A stretch of 54,969 nt of DNA, from positions 1-54,969 of the forward strand of contig JANYGI010000170.1 of assembly GCA_025362495.1 (NCBI GenBank). The letters are read 5' to 3'. Shown piece by piece: positions 14,437 to 18,679 of the stretch. This stretch comes from Byssovorax sp. Lineage in GTDB: Bacteria > Myxococcota_A > Polyangia > Polyangiales > Polyangiaceae. Under the pieces are notes generated by a model that saw only the letters and a list, made by a program, of their open reading frames with translations, was not told the origin of the DNA and did no database searches. How positions within the stretch are numbered: position 1 is the stretch's first letter; every line of letters starts with the position of its first letter. The position numbers and the translations under genes are program-made.

Positions 14437-14515
14437 TTCTCGTTTCAGGTAGCCGGATATTGCTCTCCAAGAAAATTGATCAAGAGGCCCCCCTCCGCGG
14501 GCCAAGAAGGTCGTG

Positions 14516-17131
14516 ATGGCCAAGACGCTCGTTATCGTTGAGTCGCCGGCCAAGGCGAAGACCATCAAGAAGTACCTCGGCGCGGGCTATGACGTCCTCG
14601 CCTCGAAGGGACACCTCAAGGATTTGCCCAAGGGCCCCAAGGCCGTCGACTTCGCCAACGACTTCACCGAGACGTACGCCGTCATCGAGGGCAAGGAGAA
14701 GATCCTCGAAGAGCTCAAGGCCGCCGCGAAGAAGGTCGACGCCGTGATGCTGGCGACCGACCCTGATCGCGAAGGCGAGGCGATCGCCTTCCACATCCAG
14801 CAGGAGATCAAGAGCCCGCACCTCTTCATCAACCGCGTGGAGTTCCACGAGATCACGAAGAAGGGGATCGAGCACGGCGTGGCCAACCCGCGCGAGCTCG
14901 ACGAGAACCTCTACGACGCCCAGCGCGCTCGCCGCGTGCTCGATCGAATCGTGGGTTACGACGTGTCGGCTCTCGTGTGGTCGAAGCTCGCGTTCGGTCT
15001 CTCTGCCGGCCGCGTGCAGTCGGTGGCGCTCCGCCTCGTCGTGGACCGCGAGCGCGAGATCGACGCGTTCGTCCCCGAGGAGTACTGGAACGTCGGCGTG
15101 GGGCTGCGAACGCAGGCCGGCGCCCCCGTGATGACGAAGCTCTCGGGCGGAGGCGACAAGCGCCTCGAGGTCACCAACGGCGAGCAGGCGGGCCGCGTGC
15201 GGGCCGATTTGCAGAGCGGCGCCTACCGGGTCGCGAAGGTCGTGCGCAAGGAGCAGAAGCGCAACCCGCCCGCTCCGTACACGACGTCGAAGCTCCAGCA
15301 GGACGCGACGAGCTACCTCCACTTCGGCACCAAGCGGACGATGCAGATTGCCCAGGCGCTGTACGAAGGCATCGATCTCAAGCGCGACGGCGGCCCGGTC
15401 GGCCTCATCACGTACATGCGTACCGACTCGACCCGCGTCAGCAACGACGCCATCGCCGAGGTGCGCGCCGAGATCGAGAAGATGTACGGTAAGGAGTTCG
15501 TCCCGGCCCAGCCCAACATCTACAAGTCGAAGAAGGGCGCGCAGGACGCGCACGAAGCGATCCGGCCGACCAGCGTCGAGATCCACCCCGACACGATCAA
15601 GAAGCACCTCAAGGACGAGCAGTACAAGCTCTACAAGCTGGTGTGGAACCGCTTCGTCGCCTCGCAGATGGAGCCCGCGGTGTACGACCGCACCACGGTC
15701 GACATCGAGGTGAAGCCGACGACGGCGAGCCCGCTGCACGCGGTGTACGGCGTGCGCGCCACGGGGCGGATCCAGAAGTTCGCGGGCTGGCTCGAGGTGA
15801 CGGAAGGTCAGCGCGAGTTCGCCGGCGAGGAAGACGCCGGCGACGCGACCTCGCCCGCCGACGCGGCGGCGGCGCTCGCTGCGGCCGGCGGCGCGGCGCT
15901 CACCGTGCCCGTCGAGAAGGCCGCGCCCGCGGTCGTGGTCGAGGAGGAAGCCGACGCGCTCCTGCCCGATCTGAACGAGGGCGACGTGCTCCAGCTCTCG
16001 GCCACGCCTGGCGTGATCACCGAGCAGAAGTTCACCCAGCCGCCCCCGCGCTTCAACGAAGGATCGCTGGTGCGCGAGCTGGAGAAGCGCGGCATCGGCC
16101 GGCCCTCCACGTACGCGGAGATCATCGGCAAGGTGCAGCAGCGCGCCTACGCCGAGAAGCTCGCCAGCGGCGGGTTCCAGCCGACGATGCTCGGTAAATT
16201 CGTGGTCGACGGCCTGATCAAGTCGGACCTCGATTTCATGGATCCGAACTTCACCGCGCAGATGGAAGAGGAGCTCGACGAGGTCGGCGCCGGCACCCTC
16301 AAGCGCGTCGCCTTGCTGAAGCGCTTCTACAAGCGCTTCCGTGAGCAGCTCGACAAGTCGAAGAAGCTCGCGTCGTGGAAGCCCCCGTCGATCCCCACCG
16401 ACCTCGTCTGCGAGGAGTGTGGCGAAGGAAAGATGATCAAGAAATGGGGGAAGAACGGCTGGTTCCTCTCCTGCGAGCGCTACCCGACGTGCAAGGGCAC
16501 CAAGGATCTCGCGGCCGATGGAGCGCCCTCGCCGGTCCGCGAGACGGACATCATCTGCGACAAGTGCGGCAAGCCGATGGTGATCAAGACGGGGCGCTTC
16601 GGCGAGTTCCTGTCGTGCACCGGCTACCCGACCTGCAAGAACGCGCGGCCCGTCCCGCTCGGCGTGGCGTGCCCGAAGTGCGGCGGCGACCTCATCGAGA
16701 TCCGGCCGCGCAAGAAGGGCGGACGCACGTTCTACGGCTGCTCGAACTACAACGCCGAGCAGAAGTGCGACTTCAAGCTGTGGATGCGGCCGGTGCCCGA
16801 GCCGTGCCCGCAGTGCGGCGCGCTGTTCCTCACCAAGGCCGGCGGCAAGAAGCCGATGCTGATCTGCGCCACGAAGGAGTGCGGCTACAAGGTCGAGCTC
16901 CCGGAAGAGGGCGGCGAAGATCCGGTGGGCGAGGGCGGAGTCGTCGCCGACGGCGCGAGCCCCGTCGTCGTCGCGACGCCGCGGCCGGCGCCGGTGGTCC
17001 GGGTCGAGGCGCCGAAGGCCGTCGCGGTGAAGGTCGCGGCAGCGAAGGTCGCCGCGAAGCCCGCGGCGAAGAAGGTCGCCGCGAAGAAGGCGGCCACCAA
17101 GACCAAGGCTGCTCCGAAGTCGGCGAGCTAG
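14516..17131 (+). CDS. topA: DNA topoisomerase I with four zinc ribbons and a Lys/Ala tail
   Basis: This is an 871-residue type IA topoisomerase that relaxes negative supercoils. The Toprim domain is at the N-terminus (LVIVESPAKAKTIKKYL, MLATDPDREGEAIAFHI). The active-site Tyr300 lies in LITYMRTDSTR. The C-terminus has four zinc-ribbon modules (CEECGEG...CERYPTC; CDKCGKP...CTGYPTC; CPKCGGD...CSNYNAEQKC; CPQCGAL...CATKEC). It ends in about 60 residues rich in Ala, Lys and Val with histone-H1-like AAKKVAAKKAA repeats. The ATG at 14516 is chosen over an adjacent GTG because AGAAGG is five bases upstream. Low-complexity Ala-rich residues (about 440-475) interrupt the core domain. Confidence 0.97.
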   Translation: MAKTLVIVESPAKAKTIKKYLGAGYDVLASKGHLKDLPKGPKAVDFANDFTETYAVIEGKEKILEELKAAAKKVDAVMLATDPDREGEAIAFHIQQEIKSPHLFINRVEFHEITKKGIEHGVANPRELDENLYDAQRARRVLDRIVGYDVSALVWSKLAFGLSAGRVQSVALRLVVDREREIDAFVPEEYWNVGVGLRTQAGAPVMTKLSGGGDKRLEVTNGEQAGRVRADLQSGAYRVAKVVRKEQKRNPPAPYTTSKLQQDATSYLHFGTKRTMQIAQALYEGIDLKRDGGPVGLITYMRTDSTRVSNDAIAEVRAEIEKMYGKEFVPAQPNIYKSKKGAQDAHEAIRPTSVEIHPDTIKKHLKDEQYKLYKLVWNRFVASQMEPAVYDRTTVDIEVKPTTASPLHAVYGVRATGRIQKFAGWLEVTEGQREFAGEEDAGDATSPADAAAALAAAGGAALTVPVEKAAPAVVVEEEADALLPDLNEGDVLQLSATPGVITEQKFTQPPPRFNEGSLVRELEKRGIGRPSTYAEIIGKVQQRAYAEKLASGGFQPTMLGKFVVDGLIKSDLDFMDPNFTAQMEEELDEVGAGTLKRVALLKRFYKRFREQLDKSKKLASWKPPSIPTDLVCEECGEGKMIKKWGKNGWFLSCERYPTCKGTKDLAADGAPSPVRETDIICDKCGKPMVIKTGRFGEFLSCTGYPTCKNARPVPLGVACPKCGGDLIEIRPRKKGGRTFYGCSNYNAEQKCDFKLWMRPVPEPCPQCGALFLTKAGGKKPMLICATKECGYKVELPEEGGEDPVGEGGVVADGASPVVVATPRPAPVVRVEAPKAVAVKVAAAKVAAKPAAKKVAAKKAATKTKAAPKSAS

Positions 17132-17273
17132 CGGTGACCGGACGAAGTTCGGTCACCGCCAAGGCGCCCGCGCAGCGGGCGCGGGGTATGGGGCTCAGCC
17201 CCATCGAAACAAGGCCAGTCTCGCGCGCGCGAAGCGGCCGCGTAGCGGCCCAAAAGTCCGACAAGACTTTTGG
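17131..17273. repeat. Cluster of five consecutive perfect stem-loops between topA and trmFO
   Basis: Five inverted repeats lie nearly end to end. The first has arms 17131-17143 and 17147-17159 (13 bp with one G-U pair, GAA loop) and overlaps the topA stop. The others are 17164-17171/17175-17182 (8 bp, GCA loop), 17188-17194/17198-17204 (7 bp, TCA loop), 17236-17241/17245-17250 (6 bp, GTA loop) and 17250-17258/17265-17273 (9 bp, ending in CTTTTGG). A 12-bp palindrome sits at 17221-17232. The first and last are the best terminator candidates; the triloop hairpins look like REP-type units. Confidence 0.85.
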
Positions 17274-17290
17274 CGGGCGGAGCTAGCGTC

Positions 17291-18679
17291 GTGGACGAGG
17301 TCGTCGTCGTCGGCGCTGGCCTCGCGGGGTGCGAGGCCGCGTTCCAGCTCGCGGAGCGCGGCATCGCGGTGCGGCTCCTCGAGATGAAGCCGCTGAAGCG
17401 GACGCCGGCGCAGACCAGCGACCACTTCGCCGAGCTGGTCTGCTCGAACTCGATGCGCGGCGCGGCCCTCGGGAACGCCGTGGGGCTGCTCAAGGAAGAG
17501 CTGCGGCGCTCGGGATCGATCGTGCTCCGCAACGCCGACGCCACCGCGGTGCCGGCGGGCGGGGCGCTCGCCGTCGATCGCGAGCGCTTCGGCGCGGCGA
17601 TGACGGCGGCGATGGAGACCCACCCTCGCATCCGCGTCGAGCGCCGCGAGGTGATCGAGATCCCCGCCGAGCGGCCGGTGATCCTGGCGACGGGGCCGCT
17701 GACGTCGGACGGCCTCGCCGCGGATCTCGCGCGGCTGATCGGCGCCGAGCACCTCGCGTACTACGACGCCATCTCGCCGATCGTGGCGACCGACTCGCTC
17801 GACTGGAGCAAGGTCTGGAAGCAGTCGCGCTACGGAAAAGGGGCGATTTCTCCGGGGGAAAACGCGATTTTGGCGGAGTTGGCCGACGGCGACGAGTCGG
17901 CCGAGGGCGGCGACGAGGCGTACATCAACTGCCCGCTCGACGCCGTGCAGTACGAGAATTTCGTCAAGGCGCTGGTCGAGGCCGAGAAGGTGCCGGCGCG
18001 CGACTTCGAGCAGGTGCGCTACTTCGAGGGCTGCTTGCCCTGCGAGGTGATGGCCGAGCGCGGGCGCGACACGCTCTCGTTCGGGCCGATGAAGCCGGTC
18101 GGCCTCACCGATCCGCGCACCGGGCTGCGGCCGCACGCGGTGATCCAGCTCCGCCAGGAGGACGAGGCCGCGACGGCGTACAACCTCGTCGGCTTCCAGA
18201 CGCGGATGAAATACGCCGATCAGCTGCGGGTATTTCGCACGGTGCCGGGGCTCGAGCAGGCCGAGTTCATGCGCATGGGCTCGGTGCACCGGAACACGTT
18301 CGTGAACGCGCCCGAGCTCCTGTCGGCGTCGATGGAGCTGCGGTCGGCGCCGGGCGTGTACCTCGCGGGGCAGGTCTCGGGCGTCGAGGGCTACGTCGAG
18401 AGCGCGGCCGGCGGGTTCCTCTGCGCGCTCCTGCTGGCGCAGAAGCTCCGGGGCGAGGCCGTCGTGCCGCCGCCGCCGACGACGGCGCTGGGAGGCATCC
18501 TCACGCACCTCGGGCGCAAGCAGCCGCGCTACCAGCCGTCGAACATCACCTGGGCCCACCTGCCGCCCCTGGAGGGCAAGGGAAAGCGCCTCAAGAAGCG
18601 CGAGCGCTACGACGCGATGGCCGAGCGCGCGCTCCGCGACGGCGACGCGTGGAGAGCGCTGCTGGGGCTCAGCACGTAG
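17291..18679 (+). CDS. trmFO: Folate-dependent tRNA (uracil-54-C5)-methyltransferase TrmFO
   Basis: 462 residues. TrmFO is an FAD and methylene-tetrahydrofolate dependent enzyme that makes ribothymidine at position 54 of tRNA. The dinucleotide-binding GAGLAG is at residues 8-13, followed by [24 protein letters not shown], a family signature. Other conserved blocks are [58 protein letters not shown] and [16 protein letters not shown]. The start is the GTG at 17291, directly before the FAD fold, with CGGAG nine bases upstream. The 3' end overlaps an antisense gene by 73 bases. Confidence 0.95.

Follow-up and report, generated by a model that had tools for sequence, protein, structure and literature searches.

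A hairpin array between topA and trmFO as a probable copy of a dispersed, modular, CTAG-bounded element

What accounts for the 159 bases, densely filled with hairpins, that separate the topA stop codon (17131) from the GTG start of trmFO (17291) in the 54,969-nucleotide stretch of Byssovorax DNA analysed here as a whole, hereafter the window? The original prediction, made from the sequence alone, had proposed a composite of REP-type units, a supercoiling-sensitive cruciform next to a topoisomerase gene, or a structured RNA. The reading favored here, with a probability of roughly 0.75, is that the array belongs to a modular family of IS630-type MITEs that sit in CTAG, often at stop codons. The parts of this reading differ in strength: it is very probable that the array represents one copy of a mobile element that is dispersed, modular and bounded by CTAG, and it is probable, at a lower grade, that an IS630-type enzyme moved it. 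The features of the locus are as follows, with strand given where one applies; C65 and C186 are copies elsewhere in the same genome.

14519-17131, + strand: topA, DNA topoisomerase I (TIGR01051, 712 bits); the start may be the GTG at 14513
17128-17286: whole element, CTAG to CTAG, 159 bp, or 155 bp if one CTAG is the target's
17128-17131, + strand: left CTAG, of which the TAG at 17129-17131 is the topA stop codon
17131-17159: module A, hairpin H1, 13 pairs including one G-T, loop or apex GAA
17160-17163: CAAG, boundary of A and core, presumably a decayed CTAG
17164-17182: core hairpin H2, 8 pairs, loop GCA
17188-17204: core hairpin H3, 7 pairs, loop TCA (GNA in most aligned copies)
17215-17218: CCAG, boundary of core and B, read as a decayed CTAG (CTAG in C65 and C186)
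17221-17232: 12-base palindrome TCGCGCGCGCGA, palindromy checked
17236-17250: module B hairpin H5, 6 pairs, loop GTA; both partners vary in the two outer pairs
17250-17273: module B hairpin H6, 9 pairs, loop CGACAA; five pairs change on both sides
17279-17282, + strand: GGAG, 8 nt before the trmFO GTG, a candidate Shine-Dalgarno sequence contributed by the right end of the element
17283-17286: right CTAG
17291-18679, + strand: trmFO, start GTG at 17291 (NF003739, 604 bits; TIGR00137)

The names topA and trmFO given in the original prediction are correct, and its five stem-loops and 12-base palindrome are real, as confirmed by their coordinates and by folding. As single-stranded DNA, positions 17128-17286 form the five stem-loops, which a further, weak helix encloses (z = -6.0; none of 200 shuffles folds equally well). 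RNA folding, which had been suggested as a check, gave structures much more stable than shuffles on both the + strand (z = -4.3, 201-nt stretch) and the - strand (z = -6.2). H5 and H6 overlap at base 17250. In 446 kb of the window's own genome, at least three perfect, non-overlapping stems of at least seven pairs per 143 bases were found in 6 of 22,176 segments, two of them at the topA-trmFO site and two at its copy C65, in a scan that uses overlapping segments and perfect stems only and thus misses the first hairpin (H1). With stems of at least six pairs the same scan returned 100 of the 22,176 segments, and with at least five pairs 2,644, which is not unusual. Perfect triloop hairpins of at least eight pairs number 16 in these 446 kb and show no loop preference; being rare and without such a preference, GNA-triloop hairpins were dropped as a genome-wide habit of the organism.

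The array is repeated elsewhere in the genome. A BLAST search of the stretch against its own assembly (10.84 Mb, 96.6% complete) returned six places including itself, and two of these, C65 (93%) and C103 (83%), match over nearly the full length, with alignments that cover 17128-17286 and stop at its edges. A further copy, C186, was added with a Minicystis copy as query, and C20 and C145 were added by reading around weak end matches; the identification of these two rests on sequence reading, and the 20-base end pattern behind them is unspecific, its reversed control exceeding the search in the own genome and in G018. The genome holds three other near-complete copies (C65, C103 and C186) and about five fragments. 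In these own-genome copies the similarity to the window is confined to the element and does not extend into the topA or trmFO flanks. Among the outer ends of the window copy (C72), C65, C103 and C186, six of eight are exactly CTAG and the other two CTGG and CCAG. The palindrome TCGCGCGCGCGA is disrupted in C103 and is therefore not a conserved feature.

Copies are also found in relatives. Of 108 genomes in the same bacterial family, 27 are matched by a covariance model trained on 17 copies. Minicystis rosea DSM 24000 (G038), which according to the taxonomic statement in PMC8436480 belongs to the Polyangiaceae, the family of the window's genome, carries at least 41 matches (40 of 294 first-look candidates scored). 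For the 25 model-positive genomes besides these two, one locus per genome was read by eye: 16 have CTAG at the module edges in a comparable layout, and nine lack the CTAG-bounded layout but share a similar core hairpin (two g11, five g14, G111 and G023, the last with one CTAG, at the end of the model match). With the window's genome and Minicystis included, CTAG-bounded copies occur in 18 of the 27, representing eight genera. Across the 17 aligned copies, from three genera, the order from H2 to H6 and the right-hand edge are kept, this edge being CTAG in 12 copies and deviating from it by one or two bases in the others; H6 is longer in Minicystis copies (14 pairs). The triloops of the aligned copies are GNA in 41 of 64 cases, the TCA of the window's H3 being outside this pattern. 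A much stronger conservation of the core than of the ends was considered and abandoned, mean identity in six copies being 75% for the core and 66% for the ends in a comparison where the model search itself favors the core. The two outcomes against which the original prediction had set itself, an absence of conservation in relatives and an absence of recurrence in the genome, both came out the opposite way, with units recurring in the own genome and in relatives.

Beyond the family, an exact core pattern run over 84,980 genomes, a set that may omit near kin of the window's genome, retrieved 19 stretches, ten from Minicystis and nine from other bacteria, and these nine, judged by eye, contain no hairpin array and mostly look like coding coincidences; a first, longer pattern retrieved none. 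No description of the family was found in the open-licence literature, and the element goes unmentioned where the genome paper of Minicystis (PMC8436480) deals with repeats and insertion sequences.

The stems covary, as the original prediction had proposed to check in relatives, and they do so across genera. Over 30 pairs, 23 cells changed on both sides, compared with an average of 7.7 in shuffles, none of 500 of which reached that number; the shuffles ignore the relatedness of the copies. When the partners were slid, one to four cells changed on both sides, a control with a bias of its own, since these sequences also supplied the structure and so favor it. For H1 alone the signal is weak: both partners differ at three pairs in a set of three own-genome copies, and 39 of 500 shuffles do equally well.

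The conserved layout is modular. The best copies read CTAG-A-CTAG-core-CTAG-B-CTAG, every module in them being palindromic and carrying terminal inverted repeats. In genus g22 the arrangement is CTAG-A(45)-CTAG-core(52)-CTAG-B(65)-CTAG, and the best g22 copies (L266) retain every one of the four CTAG. The boundary of A and core is CTAG in g22 and in many Minicystis copies; the inner edges of the window copy are CAAG and CCAG. Modules also stand in other combinations: A alone (L344 and L348), B alone (L337, with one edge CTAA), and a left-A/right-B hybrid from which the core is missing (L330). A single case in g22, L264, has CTAGTGCTAGTGCTAG in place of module A, a layout that removal of A leaving a few end bases would give. 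Stem-loop modules in such variable combinations, namely A alone, B alone, an A/B hybrid and A-core-B, are a trait of BOX-like elements. Module A reads GAAGTTC at positions 16-22, numbering from the TA of the left CTAG, and the end sequences of the elements take forms such as CTAGTGCNGC or CTAGYTCCGCCCGCC. G126 contains 54 end motifs, compared with none in the reversed control, whereas in six other genomes the motif has 2-25 matches and the reversed control 2-7, so it is not specific everywhere. Agreement between the outer ends is 15/16 in g22, 14 in Minicystis, 12 in C186 and 9 in G049; in the window copy, which looks decayed, it is 8/16. Module B has inverted repeats beyond TAG that agree at 10/13 in both g22 and Minicystis, at 11 in both G049 and g19, at 8 in C186 and at 6 in the window, where shuffles average 4.4 and reach at least 8 in 3.7% and at least 6 in 25%. 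The elements thus have the traits of MITEs, in that they are short, non-coding and present in dispersed copies with terminal inverted repeats, which are weakest in the window copy. No autonomous copy with the element's ends was seen in the 48 loci read from G121, G122, G123, G124 and G126, which held only short units and are part of the end-motif places, some of them at contig ends that could hide a longer copy.

The site in which these units sit is scarce. The own genome, over 446 kb and with the elements excluded, contains CTAG at 0.141 per kb compared with 2.75 expected from base composition, and the range of 0.14-0.18 per kb amounts to a depletion of 15-20 times. Among non-element CTAG sites, a GC3-frame test marks 21 of 63 (own genome) and 28 of 222 (g22) as stop codons. 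At the outer junctions of the elements, the neighboring frame ends in the TAG of the CTAG in 40 of 80 cases (own genome 3/7, Minicystis 7/23, g19 8/11, g22 22/39), compared with a background, which covers the own genome and g22 and relies on a heuristic frame test, of 23/126 and 28/444 sides of other CTAG sites, respectively. The left end of the window copy, in the topA stop codon, is outside this count of 80 since its end sequence differs from the motif used, and the copy has CTAG on both sides. The near-purging of CTAG, with one in three sampled sites serving as a stop codon, would account for copies often lying directly behind genes. CTAG edges are also reused: one IS630 copy in Minicystis is inserted in the CTAG at an element's right-hand end, and elements of G049 adjoin a different repeat at its CTAG edge. 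Such reuse explains the rows of modules. The trmFO loci read in 29 relatives included 18 without topA in the stretch read, some of which end at a contig edge. In the remaining 11, topA lies directly upstream of trmFO with a gap of 5-81 nt, measured from the topA stop to the first aligned TrmFO residue, and none of them has the element at this position. Removal of the element and one CTAG from the window leaves CTAG-CGTC-GTG, a 4-nt gap like that of the relatives.

The enzyme responsible was sought among two transposase families, Y1 and DDE_3. DDE_3 (IS630) has no match in the window's genome, and its distribution does not follow that of the element, with matches in 10 of the 27 model-positive genomes and in 38 of the 81 others. 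TA-anchored inverted repeats were recognized in 28 of 60 DDE_3 loci, six of which are copies of one Minicystis IS, and the IS630-family elements so delimited measure about 1.0-1.7 kb. The base outside the TA, on which the search placed no requirement, is C at 52 of 56 of their ends, and hence the IS630-family elements of related genomes sit in CTAG. This is a trait expected of an IS630-type MITE, the ends of the elements and of the related IS630 both lying in CTAG (TA in CTAG/YTAR). IS630 itself was reportedly found by Tenzen and Ohtsubo in 1991 to prefer the TA in 5'-CTAG-3'; it is autonomous, unlike the element, and the preference for TA in CTAG is common to both.

Some element ends also resemble IS630 ends. 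The best match, between the Minicystis left end and an element of G108, is 16/20 beyond the TA (0 of 20,000 shuffles), followed at 14/20 by the right ends of g19 (12 of 20,000), C186 (15) and Minicystis (20). Agreement then declines through the G049 ends (13/20; 113 and 117 of 20,000), the left end of C186 and C20 (12/20; 332 and 344), the g22 ends (12/20; 464 and 542) and the ends of C65 and C103 (11/20; 1,495 and 2,214) to the two ends of the window copy, which at 10/20 (4,760 and 5,856 of 20,000) are not significant. The transposases belonging to the best-matching ends, from G139, G108 and G124, are IS630 by NCBIfam, at 231.7, 208.9 and 195.1 bits (cut-off 100). When a Minicystis element was compared with 12 DDE_3 loci by BLAST, the matches were short and at the level of chance, except for the neighboring copy in L142. 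The assignment of the window copy to the IS630-type MITEs would draw on its target and on the end resemblance of its sister copies.

A different DDE transposase, for example one of the IS5 family, might have moved a CTAG-targeting MITE of this kind, like MITEPsy1, and the full CTAG that stands before 53 of 61 g22 ends fits that proposal. However, several ends match IS630 ends in register and the IS630 loci of related genomes themselves sit in CTAG, so that another DDE enzyme is unlikely. A REP- or BIME-type array moved by a RAYT (Y1 HUH) through single-stranded hairpins would share with the element its small-loop, mostly GNA hairpins, its tetranucleotide tags and its composite arrays, but the tag is CTAG at both ends rather than GTAG or CGTC at one. 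Furthermore, Y1 (RAYT, PF01797) has no match in the 96.6% complete genome of the window or in carriers such as G018, G126 and G139, and matches in 9 of 27 model-positive and 29 of 81 other genomes show no positive correlation. RAYT-mediated movement was set aside on account of the tag and the missing Y1, and it is very improbable; what survives of the REP-type composite in the original prediction is a composite of short recurring palindromic units.

The remaining rivals place the function of the array in the host. An intercistronic RNA element retained for mRNA stability, processing or trmFO translation, its mobile origin being history, is consistent with stems that covary across genera, with the position between co-directional genes and with the GGAG before the trmFO start. 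Yet the element is absent from this site in all 11 relatives in which topA is adjacent, the own-genome copies have no flanking sequence in common with it, and the covariation would also fit selection for mobility or arm-to-arm repair, which makes retention for a host function quite unlikely as the main explanation. The structured RNA of the original prediction has only the covarying stems in its favor and fits no Rfam family: there is no match in the window at the gathering score, and none of four sub-threshold matches in the window covers 17128-17286. A cruciform regulating topA through supercoiling could be imagined from the adjoining gene and the strong DNA folding, but the array lies downstream of topA, is missing between the two genes in the 11 relatives and recurs in the own genome without topA or trmFO flanks; this part of the original prediction is scarcely tenable. 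Equally hard to credit is an intrinsic terminator or pair of terminators, as might be guessed from hairpins behind a stop codon, since the scan of 17050-17350 detected no stem with a T-run on either strand; nor was a promoter-like site found near the array alongside that scan.

Under the preferred reading, that of an IS630-type MITE, an IS630 (Tc1/mariner-type) transposase encoded elsewhere would have inserted the gene-less unit at the TA of CTAG. Each such insertion would leave CTAG at both edges, in which further modules could land beside the first and build up a string of hairpins, and the near-purged CTAG, often a stop codon, would bring copies to rest directly behind genes. The present copy would have landed in the topA stop codon, leaving the TopA frame intact, and may now serve as the intergenic region and possibly also, through GGAG, as the ribosome-binding site of trmFO. 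Movement is what we infer from these patterns. The hairpins of this copy may also influence the transcript or play some other part in the host.

The element works like a BOX- or RUP-type MITE and is best read as a new family of a familiar kind with no special tie to topA. RUP of Streptococcus pneumoniae and other IS630-type MITEs are likewise short and gene-less, with inverted-repeat ends and TA in the boundary, and in the passages on RUP its ends are described as resembling those of an IS630-family element (PMC2229807, PMC3049150). In contrast to RUP, a 107-bp unit, the element has up to three CTAG-bounded modules, is GC-rich and has CTAG almost always as its target. The pneumococcal BOX elements (boxA-boxB-boxC), as the relevant part of PMC3049150 describes them, are modular stem-loop composites in variable combinations, as is the element, with boxA and boxC of about 50 nt. 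Compared by description, they differ in that each module of the element is bounded by the presumed target CTAG and also occurs alone. The GTAG- or CGTC-tagged palindromes of REP/REPIN share small hairpins, a tetranucleotide tag and dimers or composites with the element, according to portions of PMC3733652, a text in which CTAG and Sorangium each occur 0 times; the element differs in its CTAG on both sides, its longer modules and the lack of a detected RAYT partner. MITEPsy1 of Pseudomonas syringae is a 100-nt MITE inserting at CTAG or YTAA that was ascribed, with a question mark, to IS5, and the passage on it (PMC3189936) gives a 4-nt duplication and does not mention a modular build.

With this reading, an odd cluster of hairpins becomes a countable family with a landing rule, and CTAG depletion, stop-codon insertion and small modular elements become linked. 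In these large genomes, a cluster of hairpins behind a gene may be the scar of an insertion rather than a regulatory RNA. Minicystis rosea is the first candidate genome for testing movement and the partner transposase. More tentatively, the element may be a miniature counterpart of a composite transposon, in which the CTAG-bounded palindromic MITEs A and B, each with inverted repeats of its own, flank a conserved core of two hairpins and all three move together. The ends differ from genus to genus under a constant layout, which would allow the core to follow whichever IS630-type transposase is present, and the stop-codon preference would repeatedly make it the 3' region of genes and a source of start signals for the next gene.

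In a 446 kb sample of the window's own genome, the tetranucleotide CTAG is found roughly 15-20-fold less often than base composition would predict, and two of the only six occurrences in the whole window form the edges of its hairpin element. In Minicystis rosea, one hairpin element has its right-hand CTAG occupied by an IS630-family element, six near-identical copies of which have CTAG (3), CTAA (2) or TTAG (1) as their targets.

L142:1283-2423, IS630-family element occupying a hairpin element's right-hand CTAG, Minicystis rosea
L264:4201-4343, CTAGTGCTAGTGCTAG where module A would stand, genome G126
L251:3782-3962, second CTAG-bounded palindromic repeat, genome G049 (further in L253, L255 and L257)
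L189:1411-1615, head-to-tail hairpin units (GGGTGTCGGGGCGAAGCCCCGACGTTGAGA...), genome G111

The CTAGTGCTAGTGCTAG in G126 resembles two excision footprints. The G049 repeat, with ends CTAGCCCGGATNATTCA..., is distinct from the hairpin element, several copies of which adjoin its CTAG edge.

Hairpin arrays of other layout were also observed. Five genomes of genus g14 (L184, L185, L186, L188 and L192) share a different array without CTAG edges, composed of GATGAACTGCGC..GCGCAGTTCATC, CCAGCGCTTGCGCTGG and a GGGGCCTGGGGCAAAGCCCCAG hairpin, and the G111 units recur with a period of about 80 bp within the stretch shown.
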